64,000 nucleotides of DNA from Amycolatopsis sp. WAC 01376 (lineage in GTDB: Bacteria; Actinomycetota; Actinomycetes; Mycobacteriales; Pseudonocardiaceae): assembly GCF_003947415.1 (NCBI RefSeq), contig NZ_QHKL01000001.1, positions 1,612,001 to 1,676,000 on the forward strand, given 5' to 3'. Each line of letters begins with the position of its first letter. The first letter of the stretch is position 1. Both the position numbers and the translations under genes were made by a program. This document shows positions 748 to 49,977 of this stretch, piece after piece. The notes under the pieces were generated by a model. It was not told where the DNA came from. It did not search any database and worked only from the letters and a program-made list of their open reading frames with translations.

Positions 748-804
748 ATGTCGTGAAGGGCACCTTTGAGACGATGAAGGTCTCAAAGGTGCCCTTCACG
801 ACAT
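748..804. repeat. perfect 25-bp inverted repeat between convergent genes
   Basis: Arms at 748-772 and 780-804 are perfectly complementary with the seven-base loop GATGAAG closed by GAC/GTC. It begins 31 bases after the LysR stop and lies between two convergent genes, as expected for a bidirectional terminator, although there is no U-tract. A near-identical hairpin with compensatory changes is at 851 bases into the 11-kb region (11851-11905). The whole 717-1050 gap holds only this and the next palindrome; no gene is seen there. Confidence 0.85.
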
Positions 805-900
805 GAGAGTTCGGCGCCGGGCCATCGGAAACGCTCAAGGAGTCGCCCGCTCATCCCTGCGTCTCGTGAGTGGTGGGGTCACCAGAGATCACATCTGAAA

Positions 901-953
901 GTAGCGAAAGCCTCCTTCACTACCGTCAGAGTAGGCAAGGAGGCCCTCACTAC
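901..953. repeat. decayed inverted repeat
   Basis: Arms 901-923 and 931-953 pair at 18 of 23 positions around a seven-base spacer (CGTCAGA). It has the same architecture as the perfect palindrome 100 bases upstream: AC before and GT after the seven-base spacer, and a CCTCCTTC/AAGGAGG core. It looks like an older, degenerating member of the same family, and lies on the 3' side of both flanking genes. Confidence 0.6.
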
Positions 954-1050
954 CAGGAGAACGCCTACGCAGAAGCGACACCGGCCCCGCGCCACGACAG
1001 GTTTGACGTTCCCCTCAATAGAAGCAGCCTTCACCCCTTACGGAGTCTTG

Positions 1051-2493
1051 TCACATCCCCGGAAAGAGGAGCTCGTCCGGCGGCCGCACCGTGCCGTCCA
1101 GCCACGCGCGGGTGAAGTCGCCGAGGTCGAGCTGCGTCATCGCGGAGACGTAGAGCTCGAAGTCGTGCCAGTTCTGGTTTCCCTGCGGGTTGATCACCGG
1201 GAATCCCGCCACGATCTGGAAGAACGCGTCGTCGCCGATGAAACGCCGCAGTGCGTGCACCATCAGCACCGCCTTGGTGGTGGGCGCGAATTCGGTGCCC
1301 TTGCCCGGATCGGTGAGCTTGGGTGCCCAGAAACCCGTGTCACCGCTCACCTTGGCCACCATGTCGCGGTACCGCCGGTCGAGGTCGACGCCGTTCTTGC
1401 CTTCGTCCCACAACCACACCGCGTACTGCGCGATGGACTCCGGCATCAGCGTGTCGCGCCACATCTTGCCGCTCACCCCGGCGCCCCACCATTGATACGC
1501 GGTGGCGTACACCAGGTCGGCGACGGTGGCCGCGCGGCCGTACACCGGCCGGGTCTGGGCGCCGTGCGTGTAGCCGAGGGAGCGGTCGAGGAACAGTCCG
1601 CCCGCCGCCGATTGCGGGTAGTCGCCGAACTTCCCGGTGAGGAATTCCAGCACCTCGGGCAGTTTGCCGCCGAGTTCGCGTTTACCCGTCGCGCACGGAT
1701 GGTAGGCGTTTATCGCGGTCCGGCCGCCGGGAAGCGTGATCCGCTCGACCTCCCAGCGTCCGATGCCGAGCATCGCCGTACTCGGCGCGAGGGCGGTGTC
1801 CTCTGCCCAGGTGACGGTGTGCCGTCCCGCGCCCGTGGGCACGTCGGAGACCTGAGAACCGTTGCCCAGCAAGGAAAATTCGTCCAGGACGGTGACGGAG
1901 ACGTGCAGGGTCGCCTTGTCGACTTCGGTGCCGTTGACGGGGAACCAGGTCATCGCCGAACGCGGTTGCCCGGTGGCCACGGCGGAATCGCCGTAAGCGG
2001 CCAGCCAGCCGACCCGGCCGCGTGCGGTGGCGATCGGCTCCGGGCGCCCGTCGTAACCGACCACGACGGTGAACCGCTTGCCCGCGGCCAACGGGGTCCG
2101 CGGGGTGATCACGAGTTCGTGTTCGCCCGCCCGCCGGAACGCGGCGGCCATCCCGTCGACGGTGACCGACCGGACGGTGAGCCCGCGCAGGTCCAGGTCG
2201 AACCGGTTCAGGTCCTGTGTCGCTGTCGCGGTGATCGTCGCTCTGCCGTTCAACAGCATCGCGTACGGCGCGTAGTCCAACGCGAGCGAGTATTTGTCGA
2301 CGTCGTAACCGCCGTTGCCGTCCTTCGGGTAGTAAGGATCGGGGCCGAGGACGGTGCCGTCGGGTGAGACGTGCACGTACCCGTCGCTGCCGGGTGCCGG
2401 CTGAGCCGCCGCCGAAGCCGGGCAGGCGCCGATCATCGTGGTGGCGAGCAACGCGGTGCACAGTGGCTCCTGCCACCGAATCCGCACGGTCAT
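1051..2493 (-). CDS. secreted M1-peptidase homologue lacking the zinc site (pseudoenzyme)
   Basis: This 480-residue protein has an N-terminal signal peptide (cleavage near residue 29 after ASAAA) and then the N-terminal beta-sandwich and catalytic fold of short bacterial M1 aminopeptidases. At residues 329-352, where active members have HExxH-x18-E, it reads YATAY and then PES. The two histidines and the catalytic glutamate are gone, while the spacing, the following QWWG and the third ligand E352 remain. The substrate-binding ETQTRP segment is also altered (residues 309-316, THGAQTRP). It is therefore probably exported and catalytically dead, perhaps a binding protein. ATG at 2493 has an AGAAGG ribosome site nine bases upstream. 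The gene is divergent from an MFS gene. Confidence 0.8.
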   Translation of the reverse strand: MTVRIRWQEPLCTALLATTMIGACPASAAAQPAPGSDGYVHVSPDGTVLGPDPYYPKDGNGGYDVDKYSLALDYAPYAMLLNGRATITATATQDLNRFDLDLRGLTVRSVTVDGMAAAFRRAGEHELVITPRTPLAAGKRFTVVVGYDGRPEPIATARGRVGWLAAYGDSAVATGQPRSAMTWFPVNGTEVDKATLHVSVTVLDEFSLLGNGSQVSDVPTGAGRHTVTWAEDTALAPSTAMLGIGRWEVERITLPGGRTAINAYHPCATGKRELGGKLPEVLEFLTGKFGDYPQSAAGGLFLDRSLGYTHGAQTRPVYGRAATVADLVYATAYQWWGAGVSGKMWRDTLMPESIAQYAVWLWDEGKNGVDLDRRYRDMVAKVSGDTGFWAPKLTDPGKGTEFAPTTKAVLMVHALRRFIGDDAFFQIVAGFPVINPQGNQNWHDFELYVSAMTQLDLGDFTRAWLDGTVRPPDELLFPGM

Positions 2494-2583
2494 GAACTGG
2501 CCTTCTCTCTACGGGGGTGGATGCCCGGTCATCGTGCGTACGTCCGCGCCGCGCGCGGCACTGTCAGCCGGTCATGCCACGGG

Positions 2584-2601
2584 GTTATCCCGGCCGATAA
2601 C
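2584..2601. promoter_or_regulatory. dyad GTTATC-N6-GATAAC in divergent promoter region
   Basis: In the 167-bp gap between the divergent M1-like and MFS genes, six-base arms GTTATC and GATAAC flank CCGGCC. The symmetry and position suit a repressor site acting on one or both genes. No regulator lies beside it in the window, so the binding protein is unknown. Confidence 0.35.
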
Positions 2602-2660
2602 GCCGCGGCATATCCGCCAGGGACTACCCCGCGCGACACCGGGAAAGCGATCGTCGGGGC

Positions 2661-3815
2661 ATGCTGCCCCTCCCCGCGCTGCTCGCGCTGACGACGACGG
2701 TCTTCCTCGGCTGCCTCACCGAAGTGCTGCCCGCCGGGTTGCTGCTGGGCATGTCCGCGGAGCTGGGGGTTTCGCCGTCGGCCACCGGTCAGCTGGTGAC
2801 GGTCTACGCGATCACCACCGCGCTCACCGCCATCCCGCTCACCGGCGCGACACTGCGGGTACCGCGCAAACGGTTGCTTCTGGCGCTGATCACCGGTTTC
2901 CTGCTCACCAATCTGCTGATCGCCGTCTCGTCGTCGTATCCGCTGATCCTGGCCACGCGGGTGGTTTCCGGGGCGCTGACCGGGGTGATGTGGTCACTCG
3001 TCGCCGGTTACGCGATGCGTCTCGCCCCGCCGGGACTCACCGGGCGCGCGCTGGCCGTGGCGATGTCCGGCACCCCGATCGGTTTCGCCCTCGGCGTGCC
3101 CGCCGGCACCGCGCTCGGCGAACTGGCCGACTGGCGCTGGGCGTTCGCCGCGATGGCGCTGATCACCGTGCCGCTGCTGGGGTGGGTGCTCGCCGCGGTT
3201 CCCGCCGTCCCCGCGGATCCCACGCGCCCCACCCGCCCGCTGGCCGCGTCACGGCTGCCGGGGATGCGTCCCGTGCTGGCGACGGTGGCGCTGTTCTCGT
3301 TGGGGCACAACGTGGCCTACACCTACATCGGGCCGGTTCTCGCCGGGCTCGACGCGGCGACGTTGCTGGGCGCGGCGCTGCTGGTGTTCGGTTGTGCCAC
3401 GGTGGGCGGGCTGGTCGCGGTCGGCTCCGCGCTCGACGGCCGTCCTCGCGCCGTCCTGCTCACCTGCACCGCCGTGACCGCCGCCGCCATCGTCCTGCTC
3501 GGGGTGAGCGACGGGGTCCACGGTCTGGTGCTGGCCGCCGCGGGCCTGTGGGGCCTGGGATTCGGCGGCGCGCCGACCGCTTTCCAGGCCGTCACCGCCC
3601 TGATCGCGGGTCCCACGGCCGACGCCGCCCAGTCGCTCACGATCGCGGCCTGGAACGGCGCCGTCGCCGGGGGAGCGCTCATCGGCGGCCTGCTGCTGCC
3701 GCTGGGAACGGGGCTGCTCCCTTGGTGCGCCGCCTTGATCGTCCTCTCGCCGCTGCTGTTCAGCCGGCGAGTCGTGCTTTCAGTGCCCGCAGATCCGTGC
3801 CGGACCCGACGATGA
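2661..3815 (+). CDS. MFS transporter, DHA1 (drug/sugar efflux-like)
   Basis: The 384-residue protein is almost entirely hydrophobic with about 12 predicted membrane segments. An R-V-x-S-G-A-L-T-G-V-x-W stretch near residue 100 and G-x-P-x-G-x-A-L-G-V-P-x-G in helix 5 match motif C of the DHA1 antiporter family (AraJ/Cml-like exporters). Transport would be proton-coupled export of a small molecule; the substrate is unknown. The last 19 codons run antisense over the 3' end of the amidase gene, so the C-terminus beyond the last helix is probably a dispensable tail. The ATG at 2661 has only a weak ribosome site. Confidence 0.8.
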   Translation: MLPLPALLALTTTVFLGCLTEVLPAGLLLGMSAELGVSPSATGQLVTVYAITTALTAIPLTGATLRVPRKRLLLALITGFLLTNLLIAVSSSYPLILATRVVSGALTGVMWSLVAGYAMRLAPPGLTGRALAVAMSGTPIGFALGVPAGTALGELADWRWAFAAMALITVPLLGWVLAAVPAVPADPTRPTRPLAASRLPGMRPVLATVALFSLGHNVAYTYIGPVLAGLDAATLLGAALLVFGCATVGGLVAVGSALDGRPRAVLLTCTAVTAAAIVLLGVSDGVHGLVLAAAGLWGLGFGGAPTAFQAVTALIAGPTADAAQSLTIAAWNGAVAGGALIGGLLLPLGTGLLPWCAALIVLSPLLFSRRVVLSVPADPCRTRR

Positions 3816-4722
3816 GCGGCCAGACGTCGGAGCCGAGGAAGCCGGTCTCGTCGGTCGCCGCGGTCGCGCCGCAGGTGTCGCGCTCCAGTCCGTGCCGGGC
3901 CGCCACCGCGGCGACCGCGTCCTTTGTGGACTGTCCGAACAGGCCGTCGACGGGCACGGCGAAACCGCGTGCCCGCAGGAGTTCCTGTGCCGTCCGCACG
4001 CGCGGCCCGCTGTCACCGGGTTTGAGCAGCGGCCATTCCGGCAGGTCCACCTTGGGCGAAGCGGCGCCCAGCAGCTTCCCGACCTCGGTGCGCAACTCCG
4101 GAAGCCGGTTGTACAGCACGGTTCCCGGGCATTCGGTCGAGTTGAAGTCGCGGTGTCCCTTGATGAACTCCGGCGAGATCCCGTACTGCGAAGCCATGTA
4201 CGCGACCAGCTTCACGAGCGAGTCCCAGAGCGCCGGAGTGACGTCCTCTTTGCTGTAGAGGCCCTCGTTCTCGATCCCGATGCAGGTGCTGTTGTTGTTG
4301 CCCACGTTCGCGCCCAGCACGTGCTGGGTCCCGCCGCGCAGGATCTCCAGGCTGCGATGCCGCCCTTCGGTGATGTGCCCGCCGCGGCTGTTCGTGAACT
4401 GCTGGCCGGTGTCGACCCAGCCGCGGGTGTCCATATGGAAATTCTGGATGGAACGCGACGCCCAGAAGGCGTGTTCGAGCGTGTAGTCGGTGACGTTCCC
4501 CGGGTCGACCGTGTGGTGCACGACGATGTACGTCGGCTTGTGGTTCTGCACCTCGATCGCGCCGCTCGGCGGCCGCGCGTTCCATGCGGACGTGCTGTGG
4601 ATCTTCGGTTCTGTCACCCCGGACGCCGCGTCGGCGGCGGAAATCGTCGCTGTCCCCAGTAGCCCGACGGCGCTTACCGTCAGGCCGCCCTTGAGCGCGG
4701 TACGTCGGTCGAAGTCGGCCAC
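3760..4722 (-). CDS. N-acetylmuramoyl-L-alanine amidase (PGRP type) with peptidoglycan-binding domain
   Basis: The protein has a Tat-like signal (DRRTALKGG then a hydrophobic stretch ending AADA), an amidase_2/PGRP domain with zinc ligands in YIVVHHT and GHRDFNSTECPG, and a C-terminal peptidoglycan-binding repeat (LKPGDSGPRVRTAQ, VDGLFGQST). It should cut the amide bond between muramic acid and the stem peptide outside the cell. I choose the GTG at 4722 because GGGAG lies eight bases upstream and it places the twin arginines at residues 5-6; an ATG at 4740 would add a short tail. It is convergent with the MFS gene and the two overlap by 56 bases. Confidence 0.85.
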   Translation of the reverse strand: MADFDRRTALKGGLTVSAVGLLGTATISAADAASGVTEPKIHSTSAWNARPPSGAIEVQNHKPTYIVVHHTVDPGNVTDYTLEHAFWASRSIQNFHMDTRGWVDTGQQFTNSRGGHITEGRHRSLEILRGGTQHVLGANVGNNNSTCIGIENEGLYSKEDVTPALWDSLVKLVAYMASQYGISPEFIKGHRDFNSTECPGTVLYNRLPELRTEVGKLLGAASPKVDLPEWPLLKPGDSGPRVRTAQELLRARGFAVPVDGLFGQSTKDAVAAVAARHGLERDTCGATAATDETGFLGSDVWPLIVGSGTDLRALKARLAG

Positions 4723-4810
4723 GGGCAAAACTCCCATCATGCGCGTTGGCCGGAAAACTAACCCGCCATCGCGCCGATGACAACCATTGACCAACTTTTG
4801 TCGTAATGCG

Positions 4811-5686
4811 TTAGTGTTCGCCGGGGAGTGCGAACAGGCCGTCCCCGGTCTGTTCGAGCAGGCCGTCGACCAGCAGGGAGTCGAGGCAGCGGTCGCGCTG
4901 CCCGGATTCGCTCCAAACGAGGTCGAGCCGCGCCTTCTCGACGGGGCCTTCGCTTCCGCGCAGGACGTCGAGCAGCAGCCCGCGCACCTGGCGATCGGTC
5001 CCGGCGAACTTTTGGACCTGCTTCGCGGGCCCGGCGTAGGCGGGTCTGCCCGCGTGCTGCCAGGCGCAGTCTTCGTAGATGGGACAGTCCGCGCACCGCG
5101 GAGACCGCGCGGTGCAGACGAGCGCGCCGAGTTCCATCAGCGCCGCCGAAAGCTTCGCGGCGGGCGCGTCCTCCGGTGGCAACAGCGCCTCGACGTCGGC
5201 CATGTCGCGGGTGTTCGACGGCGGCCCGGCGTCACCCGCGCCGTGCACCGCCCTGGCCACCACGCGCCGGACGTTCGTGTCCACCACCGGCGCCCGCTTG
5301 CCGTAGGCGAAGGCCGCGACCGCGCGCGCCGTGTACGCGCCGATACCCGGCAACGCGAGCAGAGTGTCCACATCGGACGGAACGACGTCGCCGTGTTCGG
5401 CGGCGATGACGGCCGCGGCGGCGTGCAGCCGCAACGCGCGGCGCGGGTAACCGAGCTTGCCCCAGGCACGCACGACCTCGCCCTGCGACGACGCCGCCAG
5501 CGCCGACGGCACCGGCCAGCGCGCCATCCAGTCGAGCCAGATCGGCTGGACGCGCGCGACCGGCGTCTGCTGCAACATGATCTCGCTGACGAGCACCCCC
5601 CACGCGGTGCAGTCCGGTTCACGCCAGGGCAGGTCGCGCCCCACTTCGTCGAACCATCCGGTCAGCACATCCGCGTCGACGCCCAC
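4811..5686 (-). CDS. mutY: A/G-specific adenine DNA glycosylase MutY
   Basis: This 291-residue protein removes adenine mispaired with 8-oxoguanine. It shows the catalytic glutamate in SEIMLQQT, the helix-hairpin-helix LPGIGAYTA, the catalytic aspartate in VVDTNVRR, and the iron-sulfur cysteines C-x6-C-x2-C-x5-C (CTARSPRCADCPIYEDC). It is shorter than E. coli MutY and lacks most of the C-terminal NUDIX-like oxoguanine-recognition domain, as is known for compact actinobacterial MutY proteins. The start is GTG at 5686. The neighbouring carbonic anhydrase gene is also adjacent to mutY in Mycobacterium. Confidence 0.95.
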   Translation of the reverse strand: MGVDADVLTGWFDEVGRDLPWREPDCTAWGVLVSEIMLQQTPVARVQPIWLDWMARWPVPSALAASSQGEVVRAWGKLGYPRRALRLHAAAAVIAAEHGDVVPSDVDTLLALPGIGAYTARAVAAFAYGKRAPVVDTNVRRVVARAVHGAGDAGPPSNTRDMADVEALLPPEDAPAAKLSAALMELGALVCTARSPRCADCPIYEDCAWQHAGRPAYAGPAKQVQKFAGTDRQVRGLLLDVLRGSEGPVEKARLDLVWSESGQRDRCLDSLLVDGLLEQTGDGLFALPGEH

Positions 5687-5707
5687 CGGGCCAGCTTAAT
5701 GGCGGAG

Positions 5708-5785
5708 CTGAAGGGGACTTTCCCCGCGTCTCACGCGGCGAAGGGCGCTTTACCCGCATCGCATGCGGGGAAAACGCCCTTCAGC
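5708..5785. repeat. composite palindromic element, copy 1
   Basis: Three half-units carrying GAAGG and CCTTC-type cores fold into a small hairpin (CCGCGT/ACGCGG) followed by a larger one: 5740-5759 pairs with 5763-5782 at 18 of 20 positions. It sits directly after the carbonic anhydrase stop. The element is homologous, in reverse orientation, to 43010-43085, matching at about three quarters of positions. Position suggests a terminator; homology over the full length suggests a dispersed repeat. Confidence 0.75.
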
Positions 5786-5787
5786 AC

Positions 5788-6330
5788 CTACGCGACCTCA
5801 GATAACTGCCCCGTTTTGACGTCGTAGACGAAGCCGCGCACGTTGTCGGTATGCGGCAGGAAGTCGCTGCGCCGGACGCGCTGCACCGACCGGCGCACGC
5901 TGTCCTCGACCTCGCGGAACGCCTCGACCGACCAGGTCGGCCGGAGCCCGCTGGCGGCTTCGAGCTCGTCCTTGAAGTCGTCTTCGGTGACCATGGACAG
6001 GCCGCAGTCGGTGTGCTGGACGATCAGCACCTCGCGGGTGCCCAGTTTCCGCTGGCTCAGCGCGAGCGAACGGATCGTGTCGTCGGTGACGACGCCGCCC
6101 GCGTTACGCAGGATGTGCGACTCGCCCTGGATCAGGCCGAAGATCTCGAACACCCGGATACGGGCGTCCATGCAGGTCAAAATCGTCACGTGGAGCGATG
6201 GCCTCGGGGAAGAACGGTCACCGGGGGTGACATCGCCCAGCTCCTGATTGCGCTTGAGCAGTACGTCGATGGAGGTCACCGGCTCATTGGAACCGGGCGG
6301 ACCGGAGGAGGGCAACACTTCGGGGCTCAT
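5788..6330 (-). CDS. beta-class carbonic anhydrase
   Basis: The enzyme interconverts CO2 and bicarbonate in the cytoplasm. Zinc ligands are visible in TCMDARI (Cys plus the Asp/Arg dyad) and QHTDCG (His and Cys). At 180 residues it is a normal length for the small actinobacterial beta class. Its ATG at 6330 begins one base after the TGA of the LacI-type gene, so the two are probably co-transcribed and translationally coupled. A later in-frame GTG (residue 18) cannot be excluded as the start. It corresponds by synteny and motif to the carbonic anhydrase next to mutY in Mycobacterium. Confidence 0.92.
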   Translation of the reverse strand: MSPEVLPSSGPPGSNEPVTSIDVLLKRNQELGDVTPGDRSSPRPSLHVTILTCMDARIRVFEIFGLIQGESHILRNAGGVVTDDTIRSLALSQRKLGTREVLIVQHTDCGLSMVTEDDFKDELEAASGLRPTWSVEAFREVEDSVRRSVQRVRRSDFLPHTDNVRGFVYDVKTGQLSEVA

Positions 6331-6331
6331 G

Positions 6332-7432: not shown

Positions 7433-7437
7433 CCGCA

Positions 7438-7450
7438 AACCGTAACGGTT
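7438..7450. promoter_or_regulatory. palindrome AACCGT-A-ACGGTT, candidate LacI autoregulatory operator
   Basis: A perfect 13-bp dyad lies six bases upstream of the chosen LacI start codon, in its likely leader. LacI-family operators are typically short palindromes near the promoter. Binding by this particular protein is inferred from position only. Confidence 0.4.
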
Positions 7451-7567
7451 CAGAACGTTTTGCAGAAGCATCACCCGACGTGTGGCAGGTCTCGATTCAG
7501 AGTGACCCTGGGTACAGGTCATACCAGCGCGGCGGGTCCTGTCAGCCGTATGGGGTACAGTTGAATC

Positions 7568-7582
7568 TGACAACGGTTTCCA
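7568..7582. promoter_or_regulatory. candidate Zur box upstream of znuA
   Basis: The 15-base partial dyad TGACAACGGTTTCCA has half sites TGnnAAC and GTTnnCA around a central G. It lies about 50 bases upstream of the zinc-binding lipoprotein gene. Actinobacterial Zur sites are AT-rich dyads with TGA/TCA ends and AA/TT cores, which this resembles loosely. Zinc repression of the downstream importer is the expected logic. Confidence 0.4.
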
Positions 7583-7632
7583 TTACCCGGCATTGGCGAC
7601 ATCTGGCCTGGGCTTCCGCAGGAGTGCAGTAA

Positions 7633-11588: not shown

Positions 11589-11709
11589 CCCACCACCGTA
11601 ATCATCCCGTGTCTCCCGCACGTGAGAACCGCCCCGAAAGCGCGTTTAGCCCGCTAAACGCGCTCACCCCTCCGCCCGTGCCCCTGCTCCGCCCCTCTCC
11701 GGGACCCGG

Positions 11710-11764
11710 TGCCCCCAATGTCACATTGGAGACGCTCAGCGTCTCCAATGTGACATTGGGGGCA
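11710..11764. repeat. 26-bp perfect inverted repeat, loop GCTCAGC
   Basis: Arms beginning TGCCCCCAATG are perfectly complementary. Each arm contains its own palindrome CCAATGT-C-ACATTGG. The apex is GAC-GCTCAGC-GTC; the same seven-base apex GCTCAGC recurs in the hairpin at 48420-48468. Confidence 0.85.
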
Positions 11765-11850
11765 TGGCATTCCGGCCGCCCCCCGCACGCGAGAGCCGCC
11801 CCCCAAGCGCGTTTAGCCCGCTAAACGCGATCCGGCCGCCCCGCCTCCGC

Positions 11851-11905
11851 TGTCCTGAAGGTCACCTTTGAGACGATCAACGTCTCAAAGGTGACCTTCA
11901 GGACA
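11851..11905. repeat. 25-bp perfect inverted repeat, homologue of the 748-804 hairpin
   Basis: Arms 11851-11875 and 11881-11905 are perfectly complementary and contain a nested AAGGT-C-ACCTT palindrome. Over 55 bases it differs from the hairpin at 748-804 at six positions. Four of these form two compensatory base-pair swaps in the stem. It lies upstream of the AlgX-like gene and 48 bases beyond the stop of the DUF445 series. Confidence 0.85.
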
Positions 11906-11952
11906 GGTGGGTTCCTCGCAAGCGCGTTTAGCGGGCTAAACGCGATCGGGCG

Positions 11953-19765: not shown

Positions 19766-19894
19766 TTGACCGTCCGGAATCCACCCTGCTCGGCGGGGGT
19801 GCGAGCTTGATCAACGGAGGATCGGGGACGTTGAGTGTCCCCGATCCTCCGTTGATCAGGCACCGAGGTCGTGGACGTTGACCGTCCGGAATCC
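19766..19894. repeat. 17-bp direct repeats flanking a perfect hairpin
   Basis: TTGACCGTCCGGAATCC occurs at 19766-19782 and 19878-19894. Between them lies a perfect 22-bp inverted repeat (19808-19829 with 19837-19858) with the seven-base loop GTTGAGT closed by GAC/GTC. The gap from 19617 to 20330 has no credible gene; it contains the operator repeats, this structure, a palindrome cluster and a terminator-like hairpin. Confidence 0.8.
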
Positions 19895-20245: not shown

Positions 20246-20298
20246 GCAATGAAGGGGCCTTTCATTGCAAAATTTGCTATGAAAGGCCCCTTCATTGC
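20246..20298 (-). terminator. 20-bp perfect hairpin after the deoR operon
   Basis: Arms 20246-20265 and 20279-20298 are perfectly complementary; the 13-base spacer itself contains GCAAA-A-TTTGC. It starts 33 bases beyond the DeoR stop on that gene's strand, where a terminator is expected. No U-run follows, as is common in actinobacteria. Confidence 0.65.
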
Positions 20299-27862: not shown

Positions 27863-27866
27863 CGGC

Positions 27867-27916
27867 GGGTCGTGAGTGGTAAGTGTCGTTCTAACGACAC
27901 TTACCACTCACGACCC
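27867..27916. terminator. 24-bp perfect inverted repeat ending the sugar operon
   Basis: Arms 27867-27890 and 27893-27916 (ends GGGTCGTGAG and CTCACGACCC) are perfectly complementary, with only CT between them. It begins four bases after the aldolase stop and lies between convergent genes, so it may terminate both. The remaining bases to 28087 hold only a weak GAAGGCCTCC-type relic and no gene. Confidence 0.75.
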
Positions 27917-28087
27917 GGCTCCCATGGCCGGTCCGGAACCTCGCCATGAAGGCCTCCTGGCTACCTTGAAGTCAGCGACGTGCTCACGGCCTCAGCCGAC
28001 AGCATCTTCACCGCACGAAACAAGAAACAAGATCCTTCGGCACCACGCCGAACCGCCACCCGAACTTCCGACTCAGCCCACACGACG

Positions 28088-39216: not shown

Positions 39217-39270
39217 GAGCCCCACATTAGCCACGATCGTGGGGTGTTCGCCGCTCCCCGCGCGTGAGAG

Positions 39271-39313
39271 GAACGGTCCGTTCCTTGCAAATTTTGCAAG
39301 GAACGGACCGTTC
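39271..39313. terminator. 21-bp perfect inverted repeat after the PPOX genes
   Basis: Arms 39271-39291 and 39293-39313 are complementary around a single T. Each arm contains the nested palindrome GAACGG-T-CCGTTC. The centre TTGCAAATTTTGCAA resembles the centre of the hairpin at 20246-20298. It starts ten bases after the PPOX stop on that strand, so a terminator role is plausible. Confidence 0.65.
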
Positions 39314-39323
39314 ATGGCGCGCT

Positions 39324-41441: not shown

Positions 41442-41500
41442 ATGTGCACGATCGTAGAGGTATCCCCCGCAGCCTCACCTGGCGTGGGACACCCGCCGGT

Positions 41501-42994: not shown

Positions 42995-43009
42995 GTCTCC
43001 GTAGCCAGC

Positions 43010-43085
43010 CGAAGGGGCCCTTCACCGCATCTCATGCGGTGAAGGGCCCCTTCGCTGCGTCACATGCGGTGAAAGTCCCCTTCAG
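43010..43085. repeat. composite palindromic element, copy 2
   Basis: In reverse orientation this 76-bp segment aligns with 5708-5783 along its whole length (about 57 of 75 positions), beginning with 15 identical bases CTGAAGGGGACTTTC. It folds into a 22-bp hairpin (CGAAGGGGCCCTTC arms) plus a half-unit. It starts 15 bases after the LpqE stop and ends before radA. Confidence 0.75.
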
Positions 43086-43131
43086 CCCGTCGTTGCCCGG
43101 GTTTGTCGGTGGTGGCCGCTAGCCTCGCGGA

Positions 43132-44490
43132 GTGGTCAAGAAAGGCAGTACCTACCGCTGCGGCGAATGCGGGTACGAGGCGCCGAAGTGGGTCGGGCGC
43201 TGCCCGGAATGTCAGGCGTGGGGAACGCTCGAGGAGCGCGGCGACGCCCGTCCCGCGATAGCCAGGGTCGCGGCGGGCGCGCCCAGTGCCCCGGCGCGCC
43301 CGATCGGCGAGGTCGACGTCGAGACGGCGCGGGCCAAGCCCACCGGCGTCTCCGAACTGGACCGGGTGCTCGGCGGCGGATTCGTGCCGGGCGCGGTGAT
43401 CCTGCTCGCCGGTGAGCCCGGGGTCGGCAAGTCGACCCTCCTGCTGGAGGTCGCCTATCAATGGGCGTCCACGGCGGGCCGCGCGCTGTACGTCACCGGT
43501 GAGGAGTCGGCGGGGCAGGTGCGCCTGCGCGCCGAGCGCACCGGCAACGTCCACGACGAGATGTTCCTCGCGGCCGAGAGTGATCTCTCCGCGATCCTCG
43601 GCCACGTCGACGCGGTCAAGCCGGGAGTGCTGATCGTCGACTCGGTCCAGACCATGGCCTCGCCGCAGGTGGAGGGCGCGCCGGGCGGGGTCACGCAGGT
43701 CCGCGCGGTCACCGCCGGGCTGGTCGCGCTCGCCAAGGAGCGCGGCCTGCCGATCGTGCTGGTCGGTCACGTCACGAAGGACGGTTCGGTCGCCGGGCCG
43801 CGCGTGCTGGAGCACCTGGTCGACGTCGTCCTGCAGTTCGAGGGCGACAAGCATTCGACGCTGCGGATGCTGCGCGGGATCAAGAACCGGTTCGGCGCCG
43901 CCGACGAGATCGGCTGCTTCGAACTGGTCGAAGAGGGCATCGTCGGCGTGCCCGACCCGTCGGGGTTGTTCCTCAGCCACACGGCGGAGCCGGTCGCGGG
44001 CACCGCGGTCACGGTGACCATGGAGGGCAAGCGGCCACTGCTCGGCGAGGTTCAGGCGCTGGTGTCGGCGACCCAGTCGCCGCAGCCGCGGCGCGCGGTG
44101 AGCGGTCTCGATTCGGCGCGTGTCGCGATGGTGCTGGCCGTGGTCGAGAAGCGGGCGAACATCAAGGTCGGCGACAAGGACGTCTACGTGGCGACGGTCG
44201 GCGGCATGAAGATCACCGAACCCGGCATCGACCTCGCGGTGGTGCTCGCCCTGATCTCCTCGGCGAGGGACACGCCGCTCTCGCCCAAACTCGTCGCGAT
44301 GGGCGAGGTCGGGCTGTCGGGCGAGGTCCGGCGGGTGCCGAGCGTCGGGCGGCGGCTCGCGGAGGCCGCCCGGCTCGGCTTCACCTACGCGCTGGTGCCG
44401 CCGGATTCCGGCAAGATCCCGCCGGGGATCCGGGTGCTGGAGGTGCCGGACGTCGGAAGCGCGCTCAACGCCGCCAAACACGCGCGCTAG
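43132..44490 (+). CDS. radA: DNA repair protein RadA
   Basis: This is a RecA-like helicase of recombinational repair. It has an N-terminal zinc finger (CGECGYEAPKWVGRCPEC), Walker A GEPGVGKST, Walker B VLIVDSVQT, the KNRFG motif, and a C-terminal Lon-like domain (SPKLVAMGEVGLSGEVR). It has 452 residues from GTG 43132. Its TAG lies within a CTAG that borders the foldback element. In Mycobacterium and Bacillus it is followed by disA, which is absent here. Confidence 0.95.
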   Translation: MVKKGSTYRCGECGYEAPKWVGRCPECQAWGTLEERGDARPAIARVAAGAPSAPARPIGEVDVETARAKPTGVSELDRVLGGGFVPGAVILLAGEPGVGKSTLLLEVAYQWASTAGRALYVTGEESAGQVRLRAERTGNVHDEMFLAAESDLSAILGHVDAVKPGVLIVDSVQTMASPQVEGAPGGVTQVRAVTAGLVALAKERGLPIVLVGHVTKDGSVAGPRVLEHLVDVVLQFEGDKHSTLRMLRGIKNRFGAADEIGCFELVEEGIVGVPDPSGLFLSHTAEPVAGTAVTVTMEGKRPLLGEVQALVSATQSPQPRRAVSGLDSARVAMVLAVVEKRANIKVGDKDVYVATVGGMKITEPGIDLAVVLALISSARDTPLSPKLVAMGEVGLSGEVRRVPSVGRRLAEAARLGFTYALVPPDSGKIPPGIRVLEVPDVGSALNAAKHAR

Positions 44491-44653
44491 TGTCCTGCGC
44501 CGGAAATCCGTGCGCCTTATCGGCGGGTCCAGGTTTCTGCTGGGCGTGTGGCCGGAAGCGGCTTGTACTTGGTTGTACCTGCGCTTTCGGCCGCGCGTCC
44601 AGCGGGAAGCTGGGCCGTCGAAAAGGCCACGGCTTTCCGGCGCAGGACACTAG
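44487..44653. mobile_element. MITE-like foldback element between two stop codons
   Basis: Terminal inverted repeats of 26 bases (44487-44512 and 44628-44653, one mismatch) begin CTAGTGTCCTGCGCC. Complementarity continues imperfectly inward for about 75 bases per arm, so the element is nearly one hairpin. It encodes nothing. The CTAG at each end can be a target duplication; it supplies the TAG of radA on one strand and the TAG of the convergent gene on the other. Confidence 0.75.
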
Positions 44654-45807
44654 CCAGGCGCGGGGCCGCCGTCGTCGGTGATCACCACCGAGATCGTCGT
44701 GTCGAACAAGGTCAGCCCCGGCCAGCCCTCGTCCTGGCCGTTGGACCGGACGGCGCGGTTCCCGGTGACGGCCGCCGTGGCCCGGTCGACGACGAACGTG
44801 CGCGTCTGGTCCGGCAACGCGACCGTGAAGGACACCGCGGGCCGTCCGCCGGGACCGGCCACGCTTTCCACGGCGATGCCGGGCATCCTCGCGAGCGCTT
44901 TGCACAGTGCCACCCGCAGCGCGCCGAAGCCCTGGGAAGACCGGAGGACGTTGAAGGCCATCTCGAACATCTCGGGCGCCGAGTTCGGTTGCTCCGGTGA
45001 GCGGCCGTCCGGCCAGAGGCCGTCGCGACGGAGCCGCTCGGACAGCTTCGCCGGATCGGCGGGCAGTTCGGCTAGAAACTCCGGGGTGGGGTCGGTCCAC
45101 CCGCTTTTCGACGGCAGCCGATCCCGGGGCGGGACGGGCGGCCGTGCCTCGGAGGTCTTCAACGGCGGAGGCACCGGTGACGTGGTGGTGGTCCGCGGCG
45201 GCTTCGCCTCGTCCACGGTGACGTGGGACGACGGGCCCGGAAGCGCTTCGCCGTAGGACATGGCCGTCTGGTAGTCACCCTTGACCCACCGGATCTCGCC
45301 GGTTCCGGTGAAGCGCGTCTTGCTCGGCTTCCGGCTGTGCGGCGGCAGCCATCGTTCGAGGATCTCGTGGGTTTGGTAGACGAGCCCGGTCTTGGTGACG
45401 TGCGTGGTCCAAGTGGATTCGGTGACGAGCCGGTACTGGTCGTCCCGGATCGGGAAGTCGTCGCCGTGGAGGGCTTCGAGCGCGTCTTCGCCCCGGGTGA
45501 GGGCGGAGTGGGCCGCGGGGTCCGGGCCGTCGTCGGCGGTGAGGACGTTCGTCGCCACGATCCCGCCGCCGGACACCAGCGCCGCGGCGGCCGCTGCCGC
45601 GATCCACCGCCACGAGCCCGGCCGCTTCTTCACCGGGGGCACGGTCACGGGGAGGAGTTCGTCCTCGACATCGCCGGCGGCCCGCAGGAGCGACGCCCTG
45701 GCGCGGGACAGTTCGTCCTGCCGGGTTTCCGGTTCCGCGTGGAGGCCGGCCAGCGCCTCGTCGAGTTCGGCCTCGGACCACACCTTCCTGATGCTACCGC
45801 CGTGCAC
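44650..45807 (-). CDS. membrane protein partner of ECF sigma factor (CU044_5270-like)
   Basis: An N-terminal cytoplasmic region (about 65 residues) is followed by one membrane helix (WIAAAAAAALVSGGGIVA) and an extracytoplasmic domain with a Pro/Thr-rich stretch and a final sheet (RTFVVDRATAAVTG). The arrangement is typical of the anti-sigma-like proteins encoded after ECF sigma genes in actinobacteria. It has 385 residues. GTG 45807 overlaps the sigma-factor gene by 14 bases with GGAGG upstream. Its stop codon comes from the foldback element border. Confidence 0.75.
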   Translation of the reverse strand: MHGGSIRKVWSEAELDEALAGLHAEPETRQDELSRARASLLRAAGDVEDELLPVTVPPVKKRPGSWRWIAAAAAAALVSGGGIVATNVLTADDGPDPAAHSALTRGEDALEALHGDDFPIRDDQYRLVTESTWTTHVTKTGLVYQTHEILERWLPPHSRKPSKTRFTGTGEIRWVKGDYQTAMSYGEALPGPSSHVTVDEAKPPRTTTTSPVPPPLKTSEARPPVPPRDRLPSKSGWTDPTPEFLAELPADPAKLSERLRRDGLWPDGRSPEQPNSAPEMFEMAFNVLRSSQGFGALRVALCKALARMPGIAVESVAGPGGRPAVSFTVALPDQTRTFVVDRATAAVTGNRAVRSNGQDEGWPGLTLFDTTISVVITDDGGPAPG

Positions 45808-46414
45808 TTTCGCCCTCCTCCTCGTGACTCGAGTTGTCCTTTGTGGACTCCGGTGCGTTGGCGCGCAGCCATCTCCGGATCCGGTGCAGCCGCGATCTCA
45901 CCGTCCCGGCGGGAATCCCCAGCGCCTCGGCGACCTCGCCGGGTTCCAGCCCCGCCCAGGAGACCAGCAGCAGGGTGTCCCGGTCCGCGACGCTCAATTC
46001 GGCCAGCGCGCCCGCCAGCTGGGCCGCGCGGGACTGCGCGGCGACCCGCTCGGCGACCCGGCCGTCGTGCCCGGCCGAGACCGTCTGGCCGGCGGCCGCG
46101 AGCCGGGCCGTCGCGGTGAGCGCCCGGGTCTCCGTGCGGACGTGGTGCCGCAGCAGATTCGTCGCGATGCCGTACAGCCACGCCCGCGCCGTCCCGGCCT
46201 CCGGGCGGTACGTCTCCCGCCTCCGAAGCGCCACGAGGAACGTCTCGGCGACGAGGTCGTGCGCGGTCTCGGTGCCGACGCGGCGCGCGAGGTAGCGCTG
46301 CAGCGGGGCCGCGTGGGCGTCGAAGAGCATGCCGAAGACGGGCGCGGGGTCGGGACCACCGAGATCCGGCCTGTCCAGTCCACGCGTGCCGGCCTGCTCG
46401 TGATCGTCTTTCAT
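45794..46414 (-). CDS. ECF RNA polymerase sigma factor
   Basis: Region 2 is visible in FDAHAAPLQRYLARRVG, AHDLVAETFLVALRRR and ARAWLYGIATNLLRHH. Region 4 is ELSVADRDTLLLVSWAGLEPGEVAEALGIPAGTVRSRLHRIR. The length of 206 residues from ATG 46414 is normal. It is co-transcribed with its membrane partner and divergent from a secreted peptidase gene that may be part of its regulon. Confidence 0.9.
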   Translation of the reverse strand: MKDDHEQAGTRGLDRPDLGGPDPAPVFGMLFDAHAAPLQRYLARRVGTETAHDLVAETFLVALRRRETYRPEAGTARAWLYGIATNLLRHHVRTETRALTATARLAAAGQTVSAGHDGRVAERVAAQSRAAQLAGALAELSVADRDTLLLVSWAGLEPGEVAEALGIPAGTVRSRLHRIRRWLRANAPESTKDNSSHEEEGESARR

Positions 46415-46581
46415 CACCTGCACGATCGCTATTGCCCGATGGGCCCATGAGCGTTCATTCGTTCCTACTTTCGTCGTGGGCCGATCGGGGGCGGCGCAGG
46501 TGAGGCGGCAGACAAAAGCCTCGGCACGGGCGATCCTGTTCACTATTCACCGATCCGAAGTGAAACTGGGGAAGGATTACC

Positions 46582-47247
46582 ATGCGCCGACTCAGGACCG
46601 CGGTCGTCGCCGCGCTCGCGGTGTCCGCACTGATCACCGCCCCGGCGGTGGCCGTCGCTCAAGGTGAGAACGTCGTAGCCGCGCCCGGCTTCGTGAATTC
46701 GATGGCGCCGCCCGCCAAGGTCGAAGGGGTCAGGGCGGCCGCGGAGCTCAACATCCAGTACCAGATCCAGGAGACCGGGTACTGGTGCGGCCCGGCCGCC
46801 ACCCGCATCGCCATCTCGGCGAAGAACGGCAACCCGCCGAGCCAGCAGCAGCTCGCGAACGAGCTCCCGACCAGCACGAACGGCACCGACTGGATCGGGC
46901 AGGTCACCCGCGTCCTCAACAACCACGTCGCCGGTGGCTGGTACGAGACCAAGGAGATGCCGAACGACCCGCCGACCCAGGCGCAGCGCGACCTCCTGTG
47001 GCGCGACATCGTGCTGGACGTCGACAAGGGCTACGCGATCGTCGCGAACATCGTCGCCCCGGCGAACAACCACCCGCCGGGCTATCCGAACTACACGATC
47101 TACCACTACTTCACGATCATCGGCTACAACAGCGACAACATGACGGTGAAGATCGCCGACCCGGCCAACTTCGGCGGCAACCAGATCTACTGGCTCACCT
47201 TCAACCAGCTCGCCACCCTGATCCCGCCGAAGGGCTACTCGGCCTGA
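46582..47247 (+). CDS. secreted C39-like cysteine peptidase
   Basis: A signal peptide (cleavage near AVAVAQ, residue 27) precedes a peptidase_C39_2-like domain: QETGYWCGPAATRIA (Gln and catalytic Cys), YHYFTIIGYN (His) and KIADPANF (Asp). It has 221 residues. GGGGAAGG precedes ATG 46582. It probably cleaves peptides outside the cell; the target is unknown. Confidence 0.82.
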   Translation: MRRLRTAVVAALAVSALITAPAVAVAQGENVVAAPGFVNSMAPPAKVEGVRAAAELNIQYQIQETGYWCGPAATRIAISAKNGNPPSQQQLANELPTSTNGTDWIGQVTRVLNNHVAGGWYETKEMPNDPPTQAQRDLLWRDIVLDVDKGYAIVANIVAPANNHPPGYPNYTIYHYFTIIGYNSDNMTVKIADPANFGGNQIYWLTFNQLATLIPPKGYSA

Positions 47248-47351
47248 CCCCTTCGCCATTCGGCATCTGCTCGCGGCATTTCGCGCCGCAAGCGGGTGCC
47301 GAATGGCCGGGTTGTACGAATCTTGTACGGGCGGGCTCGAAGCTGGTGATC

Positions 47352-48308
47352 ATGCGCATCAAGACGCTCGGTCTGGTGGCCGCCTCGTTGCTGGCCCTCA
47401 TCGCCGCACCGGCCCACGCCGCCGACGGCAACCCCCTTGAGAAGACCAACGGCTTCTACGTCGACCCGAACTCCAACCCCGCGGCCTGGGTGAAGAACAA
47501 CCCGGGCAGCACCGCCGACAAGATCAAGGCCGCCATCTCCACGAAGGCGGGCGCGCGCTGGTTCGGCAACTGGAGCGGGAACATCAAGACGGCCGTCGAC
47601 GGCTACACCTACGCCGCCGACGTCGCGGACAAGCTGCCGATCCTGGTCGCCTACAACATCCCCGGCCGCGACTGCGGCGGTCACTCCGGTGGCGGCGCGG
47701 GCAGCCCGGAGGCGTACCGCACCTGGATCTCGAACTTCGCCGACGGCATCGGCGGCAAGCCCGCGGTCGTCGTCATCGAGCCGGACGCGCTCGCGCAGGT
47801 CGACTGCCTGCCTGCCGGTGAGCGCCAGACCCGCCTCGACCTGCTCAAGTACGCCGCGGAGCAGTTCGCCGCGAAGGCCCCGAACACCTGGGCGTACATG
47901 GACGGCGGCAACTCGACCTGGATCCCGGCCGCGACCATGGCCGACCGGCTCAACGCCGTCGGCGTGAAGTCGATCCGCGGCCTCGCGATCAACGTGTCGA
48001 ACTACAAGACCACCACCGACTCGGCGAACTACGGCAAGGCCGTCAGCGCGGCGCTGTCGAGCAAGTACGGCTACACCAAGCCGTTCGTGATCGACACGAG
48101 CCGCAACGGCAACGGCCCGCTGGGCTCCGAGTGGTGCAACCCGGCCGGGCGCAAGCTCGGGGCGACCTCGCAGACCGGCGGCGGCGCCGAGATGCTGCTG
48201 TGGGTCAAGGTGCCGGGTGACTCCGACGGCAAATGCGGCATCGCGCCGAACGTCGAAGCCGGTCAGTTCAGCCCCGATCTGGCCCTGCGCCTGATCAGCG
48301 GGACCTGA
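47352..48308 (+). CDS. secreted glycoside hydrolase family 6 (cellulase/cellobiohydrolase)
   Basis: After a signal peptide ending APAHAAD the protein is a single GH6 barrel: YNIPGRDCGGHSGGG (first catalytic Asp region), VVVIEPDALAQVDC (second Asp region) and LLWVKVPGDSDGKCG near the C-terminus. It cleaves beta-1,4-glucan from the non-reducing side with inversion. At 318 residues it lacks a carbohydrate-binding module. The start at 47352 begins the signal peptide MRIKTLGLVAAS. Confidence 0.9.
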   Translation: MRIKTLGLVAASLLALIAAPAHAADGNPLEKTNGFYVDPNSNPAAWVKNNPGSTADKIKAAISTKAGARWFGNWSGNIKTAVDGYTYAADVADKLPILVAYNIPGRDCGGHSGGGAGSPEAYRTWISNFADGIGGKPAVVVIEPDALAQVDCLPAGERQTRLDLLKYAAEQFAAKAPNTWAYMDGGNSTWIPAATMADRLNAVGVKSIRGLAINVSNYKTTTDSANYGKAVSAALSSKYGYTKPFVIDTSRNGNGPLGSEWCNPAGRKLGATSQTGGGAEMLLWVKVPGDSDGKCGIAPNVEAGQFSPDLALRLISGT

Positions 48309-48325
48309 CCGCTTCCTCAAGACCC

Positions 48326-48406
48326 GTCGCGCCGGCTGTTCGTCTGTGACTTTCGTTCTCCCGAGAAGGCGAAGGCCACGACCCCTTGGACAGCAGCCGG
48401 CGCGAC
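48326..48406. repeat. structured 3' region after the cellulase
   Basis: GTCGCGCCGGCTG (48326-48338) pairs with 48394-48406. The 55 bases between contain a second hairpin of TTCTC and GAGAA type. It starts 18 bases after the GH6 stop and may form part of its terminator. Confidence 0.5.
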
Positions 48407-48419
48407 GCCTCCAACTTCC

Positions 48420-48468
48420 CGTGAAGGCCCCCTTCCCTCGGCTCAGCCGAGGGAAGGGGGCCTTCACG
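48420..48468. terminator. 21-bp perfect inverted repeat, loop GCTCAGC
   Basis: Arms 48420-48440 and 48448-48468 are perfectly complementary with the seven-base loop GCTCAGC, the same heptamer as in 11734-11740. Each arm contains GAAGG-CCC-CCTTC. It lies about 110 bases after the GH6 stop and ends 61 bases before the next start. Confidence 0.7.
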
Positions 48469-48529
48469 CGCTCCCGGTAGTACGGTGCGAGGTGACCTGA
48501 GTCACAGTACCGACCGAGGAGGCGGCGTG

Positions 48530-49582
48530 GTGGAGTTCCAGCTGGGGATCGGCACCAGGAAGGGTCTTTTCCTCGCCCGCAGTGAGGACGGGGAGAGCTG
48601 GGAACTGTCCACACCGAAGTTCCCGATGGAGGCCGTGCGGGCCCTGGCGCTGACGCCGTCCAAGGTCTACGCCGCCGCGGTCAACGAACACTTCGGTCCC
48701 ACGATCGCGACGTCCGGCGACTTCGGCGAGACCTGGTCCGAACCCGATCACGCCCCGGTGGCCTTCCCCGAGGACACGGAGACGGCGCTCGAAGGCATCT
48801 GGCAGATCGTCATCGCCGGTGACGTCGTCTACGCGGGTGTCGAACCGTCGGCGCTGTTCCGGTCCGAAGACGGCGGCGGGACCTTCGGGCTCGTCCGCGG
48901 CCTGTGGGACCACGAACACCGTCCACATTGGACTCCCGGCGGAGGCGGGCAGATGATCCACACGATCCTGCCGCATCCCGCGGATCCCGGCCGGATCACC
49001 GTCGCCATGTCGACGGGCGGGGTCTACCGCACCGAGGACGGCGGCAAGAGCTGGACGGCGGCCAACCGCGGGATCAGCGCGGGTTTCCTGCCCGGCGAAG
49101 AGCCCGAATTCGGGCAGTGCGTGCACAAGGTCGCGATGCATCCGTCGCGTCCCGAGCGGTTCTTCCTGCAGAACCACGGCGGTGTCTACCGCAGCGACGA
49201 CGACGCGAAGACGTGGAAGTCCATCGCCGACGGGCTGCCGAACGACTTCGGGTTCGCGATGGTCGTCCATCCGTCCGAACCGGACACCGTCTACAACTTC
49301 CCTTTGGTGGCCGACGCACTCCGCTTCCCGCCGGAGGGACGCTGCCGCGTCTACCGCAGCGAGGACGCGGGCGAGACCTGGACAGGGCTCGGGAACGGCT
49401 TGCCGGACAAGGGTTTCTACGCGGGCGTCCTGCGGGACGGGATGTGCGTCGACGCGCGGGGCGGCGTCTACTTCGGCACCCGGTCCGGTGAAGTGTGGGC
49501 CAGCCCCGACGAAGGCGACACCTGGCATCAGGTGGCCGCGCATCTGCCGGACGTGCTGTGCGTGCGGGCTCAGGTGGTCTAG
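48530..49582 (+). CDS. BNR/sortilin-like beta-propeller protein (sialidase-fold)
   Basis: Repeated S-x-D-x-G-x-T-W asp-box units are visible (SEDGESWEL, SGDFGETWS, EDGGKSWTA, SDDDAKTWK, SEDAGETWT, SPDEGDTWH). They mark a six- or seven-bladed propeller as in sialidases and VPS10 domains. There is no signal peptide, so it is probably cytoplasmic. Catalytic sialidase residues cannot be placed. GTG 48530 is seven bases after GGAGG. The MoaD-like gene follows immediately. Confidence 0.8.
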   Translation: MEFQLGIGTRKGLFLARSEDGESWELSTPKFPMEAVRALALTPSKVYAAAVNEHFGPTIATSGDFGETWSEPDHAPVAFPEDTETALEGIWQIVIAGDVVYAGVEPSALFRSEDGGGTFGLVRGLWDHEHRPHWTPGGGGQMIHTILPHPADPGRITVAMSTGGVYRTEDGGKSWTAANRGISAGFLPGEEPEFGQCVHKVAMHPSRPERFFLQNHGGVYRSDDDAKTWKSIADGLPNDFGFAMVVHPSEPDTVYNFPLVADALRFPPEGRCRVYRSEDAGETWTGLGNGLPDKGFYAGVLRDGMCVDARGGVYFGTRSGEVWASPDEGDTWHQVAAHLPDVLCVRAQVV

Positions 49583-49855
49583 GTGGTCCGGGTCCTGCTG
49601 CCCGCGATGCTGCGGCCGCTCGCGGGCGACGAGGGTGCGCTGGAGGTCGTCGCCCCGACGCTCGACGCGGTCCTGGACTCGCTCGGCGTCGAGTATCCGG
49701 CGCTGGAACGCCGTCTGCGCGACGAAACCGGCGTGCTGCGGCGCTACGTGAACTTTTATGTGGACGGTGAGGAATGCCGCCGTCTCGACGGCGCCAAGAC
49801 CTCCCTCGCCGACGCGAAGGAGGTCCAGATCATCCCGTCCGTCGCCGGGGGCTGA
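49583..49855 (+). CDS. MoaD/ThiS-family ubiquitin-like protein
   Basis: The 90-residue beta-grasp protein ends in VAGG, the C-terminal GlyGly used for thiocarboxylate formation in molybdopterin and thiamine synthesis. KTSLADAKEVQIIPSVAGG is typical of the family. GTG 49583 begins immediately after the propeller gene's stop, so they are one operon. Which sulfur pathway or conjugation it serves is unknown. Confidence 0.85.
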   Translation: MVRVLLPAMLRPLAGDEGALEVVAPTLDAVLDSLGVEYPALERRLRDETGVLRRYVNFYVDGEECRRLDGAKTSLADAKEVQIIPSVAGG

Positions 49856-49924
49856 AGGGGACTTGCGCGCGGTGCCTGAGTTCCGGAGGCGACGCGTGCT
49901 TCGGTCCAGACCACGTCACCGAAC

Positions 49925-49977
49925 GTCAGGAAAGGGTCGTTCAGGACGAAAAGTGTCCTGAACGACCCTTTCCTGAC
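49925..49977. terminator. 23-bp perfect inverted repeat between convergent genes
   Basis: Arms 49925-49947 and 49955-49977 are complementary with the seven-base loop GAAAAGT closed by GAC/GTC. It lies between the MoaD-like and trehalose genes, 3' of both, ending 11 bases from the latter's stop. Confidence 0.75.

Follow-up and report, generated by a model that had tools for sequence, protein, structure and literature searches.

The window analysed here is a stretch of 64,000 nucleotides from the genome of Amycolatopsis sp. WAC 01376 (9.07 Mb in 30 contigs; window at C11:1612001-1676000). It contains seven long inverted repeats that a sequence-only reading of this DNA had described as a family of intergenic hairpins with a conserved seven-base apex. 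All seven were recovered (Table 1). The apex AC-N7-GT is present in six of them, with a closing GAC/GTC in five, and the apex GCTCAGC occurs twice, on the different stems of 11710 and 48420. The arms, reported as mostly perfect, are perfect around a 7-nt centre in six hairpins, and 901-953 displays 5 mismatches in 23. RNA folding predicts the claimed seven unpaired bases in 748-804 only: the predicted apex is shorter in 11710 and 48420 (3 nt) and in 11851, 19808 and 49925 (5 nt), and 901-953 is folded with internal mismatches. Six of the hairpins have fold energies between -44.8 and -52.3 kcal/mol; that of 901-953 is -25.2 kcal/mol. Most of the hairpins had been placed just after stop codons; in our gene calls only three of the seven (748, 11851 and 49925) lie at most 50 nt from a stop. 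At the gathering score, the sole Rfam match in the window is a transfer RNA, and no known RNA family was recovered for the hairpins. A search of open-licence PMC papers by title and abstract start found no description of these elements.

The plan behind these hairpins is a palindromic unit, AANGNNNCNTT, that recurs after exactly 30 bp. Together with the linker between them, the two units make up a 45-bp core, which folds back into a hairpin of about 24 bp whose centre is short. This plan is common to ten stem families, referred to below as the superfamily. The constrained set recognised by the sequence-only reading, for which a ligand or a mobile origin was worth considering, is confirmed as such; the constrained object is the 45-bp core, and the loop is its centre.

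Hairpins were searched in two stretches of the WAC 01376 genome, stretch A (C11:1212001-1676000, 464 kb, which includes the window) and stretch B (C22:400001-800000, 400 kb), and in four other Amycolatopsis genomes (G052, G022, G008 and G020). With a score of at least 12, 103 hairpins were detected in stretch A and 93 in stretch B, a single Markov resample per stretch giving 1 and 1 as chance background. Among the 239 odd-length hairpins of the five genomes with a score of at least 16, 168 have AANGNNNCNTT in their left arm, in every case centred 15 nt from the apex, a place where the control motif is absent; in the even-length hairpins the unit occurs in 3 of 76, at scattered offsets. The unit motif was derived from hairpins, the distance of 30 bp was not imposed, and the count of spacings is independent of hairpin detection. 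The spacing between units has its maximum at 30 bp in each of the five genomes (95 pairs in stretches A and B, 15 in G052, 20 in G022, 50 in G008 and 59 in G020); the mean number of pairs at other distances is 0.06 to 0.78, and there is no peak for the control motif. Triple arrays with the 30-bp period were found once in stretch A, four times in G052, six times in G008 and nine times in G020 (0 in stretch B and in G022). Single units number 130 in WAC 01376, versus 50 occurrences of the control motif.

The multi-alignment of 13 representatives, eleven of which were chosen below 72% identity, is free of gaps over 49 columns, with little or no variation at the AA, G, C and TT positions. In this alignment 99.6% of the 273 cells are paired, a percentage biased upward as the representatives were drawn from a pairing scan; 16 of the 21 pairs change on both sides somewhere, and 0 of 500 shuffles match the observed pairing values. 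An arm-seeded search, requiring one arm and at least 14 of 21 pairs, detected 224 hairpins, with a centre of 7 nt in 222 of them and no unpaired position in 85. Some of the 131 solitary arms belong to hairpins read in the opposite direction, and this number did not serve as a count. Both the size of the element and the place of its loop are much more tightly constrained than chance gives; loops and lengths as free as those of random intergenic hairpins, which the sequence-only reading had named as the outcome that would speak against it, were not obtained. The G-T pairs were considered as a sign of selection on RNA and rejected: since either strand of the elements can be read, the 89 GT and 105 AC among 453 unpaired cells say nothing on this point.

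Apex conservation is limited to part of the superfamily, and the apex is often close to self-complementary. The central T-C/G-A (TSA) is present in six of the seven hairpins of the window, so that a shared apex is real there, and is restricted to some stem families. Over stretches A and B, G008 and G020, it was counted in 21 of 22 hairpins of family C, 12 of 12 of G, 10 of 11 of B, 6 of 8 of E, 11 of 21 of N and 7 of 17 of F, and it is rare or absent in families A (0 of 44), H (0 of 14), D (0 of 7) and M (2 of 11), the copies within one genome not being independent. The apex sequence (AAATTT, CTAGA, TSA and others) varies by family. In other genera, a hand count of the listed 45-bp places recovered by an apex-blind pattern gives a TSA apex in 34 of 43 (G111), 10 of 18 (G077) and 5 of 11 (G089). 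Family G has a further peculiarity: 17 of the 21 copies examined have a repeat in common next to the hairpin, at one flank or at both, truncated at differing points. The hairpin 748 is embedded in this longer G repeat, to which its flanks belong, and 11851 is one of the four copies without it. An even-loop hairpin of family J is located at 27866-27917 of the window (CGTGAGTGG...GTTCTAAC...CCACTCACG). Several G elements are also flanked by TCGTGAGTGG, the J half motif, and J and G may therefore be modules of one larger mosaic repeat.

Table 1. Hairpins of the superfamily in the window. The last four rows are members additional to the seven first reported. R2, covariance model of 13 sequences.
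Position	Family	Centre	Arms, units and model match	Genes and counterparts in relatives
748..804	G	GATGAAG	perfect 25-bp arms; AANGNNNCNTT at 756, second unit 30 bp further	32 nt past the stop of 51-716 (+); convergent with 1051-2493 (-)
901..953	C-like, imperfect	CGTCAGA	unit pair not found by the pattern; R2 match, E 6.8e-7	
11710..11764	E	GCTCAGC	perfect arms	E-type hairpin in the same gap of G020 and G052
11851..11905	G	GATCAAC	perfect arms	47 nt past the stop of a DUF445 gene (-); ATCAA centre retained by the counterparts in G008 (stem change paired) and G031 (4 mismatches)
19808..19858	N	GTTGAGT	without the AANGNNNCNTT unit (unit pattern); weaker R2 match, E 9e-9	
48420..48468	B	GCTCAGC	perfect arms	112 nt past a GH6 gene's stop; G020 counterpart has two pairs without compensation
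49925..49977	M	GAAAAGT	perfect arms	convergent gap with stops at about 11 nt and 69 nt; slot in G020 holds a hairpin with two stem pairs changed on both sides, none broken
5737..5785	I		extra unit at 5711, 30 bp upstream	
20248..20296	A	AAAATTT		
39268..39316	A	AAATTTT		about 10 nt past a stop; other-stemmed hairpins in the same slot of G022 and G020
43007..43087	I (array)		three palindromic units, 30-bp period (43012, 43042, 43072)	

The position of the hairpins relative to genes depends on the family. Genes were called from our own GC-frame picks, which missed the GH6 gene ending at 48308, and some hairpins recorded inside open reading frames are perhaps errors of the caller. Family labels follow simple pattern rules, in two slightly different versions. 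The T set is composed of families A, B, I and M and of the non-members J, K and L, and the X set of families C, D, E, F, G, H and N; this split was picked after viewing stretches A and B and afterwards checked on G008 and G020, which were not used to choose the stop-adjacent families. Expected counts correspond to random placement in gaps, and hairpins within called genes are omitted (1 of T, 5 of X and 8 of all in stretches A and B; 1, 3 and 9, respectively, in G008 and G020). With a score of at least 14, 39 of the 45 hairpins of families A, B, I and M in stretches A and B lie at most 30 nt from a stop (about 4.5 expected), and 28 of 35 in G008 and G020 (about 4.4 expected). The whole T set, with a score of at least 16, gives 55 of 65 near a stop in stretches A and B (6.5 expected, highest of 2000 trials 16) and 38 of 47 in G008 and G020 (5.9 expected, highest of 1000 trials 14). 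The median distance to the stop is 3-17 nt for hairpins of families A, B, I and K. Convergent gaps contain 62 of 122 hairpins of all kinds (28.0 expected) and divergent gaps 5 (24.7 expected). Both sets take part in this: 38 of 65 T and 20 of 42 X hairpins are in convergent gaps in stretches A and B, and 30 of 47 and 18 of 38 in G008 and G020, the divergent gaps having 1 T and 3 X hairpins in the former and 1 and 0 in the latter. The seven hairpins of the window belong to mixed classes, 48420 (B) and 49925 (M) coming from families mostly near stops and the five others (748, 901, 11710, 11851 and 19808) from families with little stop preference.

The hairpins of family K, of about 62-66 nt (CCTCTGAATGCGG), are at most 17 nt from a stop in all 12 cases of WAC 01376. 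In stretch A, copies were found at 77290, 118037, 238559 and 261059, and a weaker K-like copy is located at 47255-47307 of the window. A further over-represented intergenic word of stretches A and B, ACACGCGTGTCGTCCATCC, is outside the superfamily, and a similar stretch occurs in a long L-type hairpin at 346919 of stretch A. Among the neighbouring genes, 49992-52265 (-) of the window encodes a single protein with a Trehalose_PPase domain, TREH_N and a GH15 domain.

Comparison of orthologous slots shows that occupation tends to be retained while stems are exchanged. Across the 464-kb stretch, 92 orthologous gaps were obtained with G052, 194 with G022, 218 with G008 and 210 with G020. A hairpin in WAC 01376 predicts one in the relative, with Mantel-Haenszel odds ratios of 24.6, 15.0, 14.7 and 19.5, respectively (gaps of at least 60 bp, stratified by gene orientation). 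For slots of family A with a flank identity of at least 0.75 (11 comparisons), 186 pairs are unchanged, 45 are changed on both sides and still paired, and 2 are other, a compensated share that is inflated since detection favours well-paired copies. The identity of orthologous family A arms is 0.79 with G022 (8 slots) and 0.78 with G020 (10 slots), like that of any between-species pair of this family (0.80 and 0.77). At slot 54 the family itself is swapped beside an unchanged stop, WAC 01376 and G020 having a family A hairpin and G022 a K-type one. Slot 152 of G022 holds a K-related hairpin with a different stem.

Presence also varies between genomes. At the 11.7-kb gap of the window, whose length is comprised between 15 and 361 bp across relatives, 27 of 30 loci were resolved and 6 of these 27 contain hairpins of the superfamily (WAC 01376, G008, G031, G020, G052 and G045). 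A second short repeat outside the superfamily, about ATCGCGTTTAGCSSGCTAAACGCGAT, fills the corresponding gap (11622-11952) in varying number in relatives (L070-L086). One family G hairpin lies in an insertion of about 222 bp (387716-388025 of stretch A); a clean target duplication was not noticed there in the eight alignments shown, and transposases other than Y1 were not searched. Four relatives have a short stem-like GAAGG...CCTTC at the place of this insertion, as if repeats entered existing gene-end hairpins.

The elements are numerous in WAC 01376 and extend beyond the genus. The pattern TGAAGGNNNCCTT-N{11,27}-AAGGNNNCCTTCA was found at 260 places in this genome and its reversed control at 0. 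The 50 places listed of these 260 are all of 45 bp, though 37-53 bp was allowed, as are 72 of the 75 listed in three other genera (the other three, all from G089, being of 44, 46 and 47 bp), the listed places sharing one core by choice. Covariance models were built from the seven hairpins (R1) and from 13 sequences (R2). In the Pseudonocardiaceae, R1 with E at most 1e-12 detected 20 of 60 genomes and 16 of 46 genera sampled. Eleven genomes from other genera of the family, picked for a prior R1 match, were searched with the pattern: six contain it (18, 18, 41, 14, 118 and 7 places) and five are without it. In the order, R2 with E at most 1e-8 detected 18 of 101 genomes and 7 of 45 genera sampled, four other families included; in the phylum sample, with E at most 1e-9, WAC 01376 is the only one of 149 genomes. 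Among 20 listed loci of the order search, seven of which come from genus g33 of the same family as Amycolatopsis, 15 are between convergent genes and 16 keep the unit, a retention that is not independent as R2 itself favours the unit; in the loci from other families, the additional hairpins of the flanks were too few to serve as an independent check. In genus g60, which belongs to another family, a distance-free pattern recovered 42 places in 3 of 5 genomes. Exact matches to the family G core in the named collection, where records very near WAC 01376 may be left out, are nine Amycolatopsis loci (five species) and one of Kutzneria viridogrisea.

The analysis establishes the anatomy of these elements, their copy number, their intergenic and convergent placement, the stop-adjacency of some families and the paired exchange of stems at slots, and the constrained set is not composed of random terminators. 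The evidence suggests that its members serve to mark where genes end and undergo recopying inside a genome. Our best reading as a whole, held with about even confidence, is that the elements are palindrome doublets resembling REPINs (doublets of repetitive extragenic palindromes, REPs, that form hairpins), some of which serve as bidirectional gene-end hairpins and whose copies are homogenised within a genome. The hairpins of families A, B, I and M would end transcripts coming from both sides, or fix their 3' ends, without a uridine tract (U-tract), and a factor or RNA processing may aid them. Because of their stop-adjacent placement and slot retention, such a gene-end role is probably the most economical explanation for these four families. 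The fixed AA, G, C and TT positions and the 30-bp phase would be kept either through reading by a protein or a copying machinery, or through the doublet being the copying unit; the 30-31 bp phase and the fixed positions suggest a reading protein, and a fixed copying unit would explain them equally. Transposition into hairpin slots, or gene conversion between them, would homogenise the copies, so that each genome acquires a stem dialect of its own. In families C-H and N, the elements may be of the same or a related kind, dispersed in 3' regions without a stop-adjacent role. A dedicated factor that reads two or three 30-bp-phased units and ends transcription both ways, with copying in place free of the REP-associated tyrosine transposase (RAYT) giving the paired stem dialects, is a tentative proposal that we find rather doubtful.

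Several results weigh against this gene-end and recopying reading. Over 76 aligned hairpin pairs with families mixed, 1264 base pairs are unchanged, 267 are changed on both sides and paired, and 69 are other, with the same inflation of the compensated share as above; 16 hairpin pairs of differing parity were set aside from this base-by-base comparison, and the mean flank identity over the 76 is just 0.66. In the 13 representatives, 5 of the 21 pairs never vary. The concerted pattern is clear only in WAC 01376, because the within-genome identity of family A exceeds the between-species level there (0.88), and hardly or not at all in G020 (0.81), where the pattern is weak, and in G022 (0.79), where it is not seen. 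The X set is near stops in 10 of 42 cases in stretches A and B (4.2 expected, highest of 2000 trials 12) and in 7 of 38 in G008 and G020 (4.8 expected, highest 12). There is no U-tract in the 124 tails of the T set, the 10 nt past the stem having 1.86 T versus 1.74 in the background, and only 1 of 124 has at least 5 T in 8 nt. Because the pattern itself selects a single core, the constant length of the listed places could be due to recent copying. The 42 cores of g60 are of 45 bp in 13 cases, 46 bp in 28 and 47 bp in 1, and for this reason the fixed 7-nt centre is, in these data, a feature of the family of WAC 01376 and not of the whole order. Finally, no transposase or converting enzyme was identified, Y1 being the only transposase searched.

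Purely selfish mobile repeats, of the REPIN type or like miniature inverted-repeat transposable elements, without gene-end function and piling up behind genes as other insertions are removed, are the strongest rival, and we consider them unlikely. They would account for the presence and absence between genomes (6 of the 27 resolved at the 11.7-kb gap), for the G hairpin located within an insertion of about 222 bp, for the 17 of 21 G copies within a longer mosaic repeat and for X families little tied to stops. However, families A, B, I and K are, at 3-17 nt, far nearer to stops than random gap placement gives, slots tend to remain occupied while the sequence changes, and the Y1 transposase (RAYT, PF01797) is present in 0 of 40 Amycolatopsis genomes, WAC 01376 included, 5 of 14 control genomes being positive and other transposases not being searched. 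It is less probable again that the elements are operator arrays for a sequence-specific protein binding double-stranded DNA (an organiser, a roadblock or a segregation site), the hairpin being secondary. A short palindromic unit whose AA, G, C and TT are fixed, the spacing of 30 bp (mostly 30-31 in g60), about three helical turns, the dimers and trimers and the excess of single units over the control (130 and 50) would all suit such a protein, but the arms pair beyond the units, also in the linkers and at the outer bases, and double changes preserve this pairing, something that operators by themselves would have no need of. Ordinary strong intrinsic terminators, alike through composition and recent duplication, are the least probable, since the stop-adjacent families, convergent gaps and very stable stems that fit them come without a U-tract, with fixed unit positions and an exact 30-bp phase across the eleven representatives below 72% identity, and from a genome whose other hairpins vary in size and loop.

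How high-GC actinobacteria end their transcripts is an unsettled question on which these elements bear; canonical intrinsic terminators are reported as scarce in Mycobacterium tuberculosis (PMC10937400). The element is abundant and precisely built, with hundreds of copies in Amycolatopsis, a genus noted for antibiotic producers, and with conserved gene-end slots. Two testable questions follow: what reads the 30-bp-phased pair of palindromes, and what exchanges short hairpins in place. The elements may also supply a rule by which the gene ends of these genomes can be annotated.

Among known systems, intrinsic terminators of a U-less or 'I-shaped' type, for which the stem is the only defining feature, have been proposed for actinobacteria. 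The elements described here resemble them as hairpins near stops without a T-run, and differ by their phased motif, their fixed size and the exchange of stems at slots. A GC-rich stem close behind the stop, as in terminators, is found in families A, B, I and M and not in C-H and N; an assignment to canonical intrinsic terminators was rejected, as no U-tract follows the stems. Paired DNA uptake signals (PMC1852404, PMC2267715) likewise consist of a repeated motif present twice in inverse orientation, forming hairpins that perhaps end transcripts; unlike them, the present elements have ten or more stem families, longer stems and no U-tract. The REPs tagged with GTAG/CGTC (PMC3733652) are short palindromic repeats with stem families and alternative complementary residues, as here, but their stems are of 5-13 bp with an unpaired end tag; the flank consensus of our ten families, read by eye, contains no such tag, and the terms actinobacteri-, Streptomyces and Mycobacteri- are absent from the text of PMC3733652. 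Membership of the REP/RAYT system failed, both the end tag and the Y1 transposase being lacking. The closest likeness is with REPINs, which are described (PMC3116915) as REP doublets forming hairpins in Pseudomonas and others. Both are high-copy extragenic palindromic units arranged as inverted doublets at a preferred spacing (here the 30-bp peak of five genomes, as also expected of tagged REPs), with hairpins, compensatory changes and singlets. The spacing is 71 or 110 bp in REPINs (PMC3116915) and 30 bp here, where stems are of at least 21 bp and often perfect (85 of 224), and where some families are stop-adjacent. Since they are REPIN-like yet without tag, Y1 or U-tract, we file these elements as a new variant of dispersed palindromic doublets.

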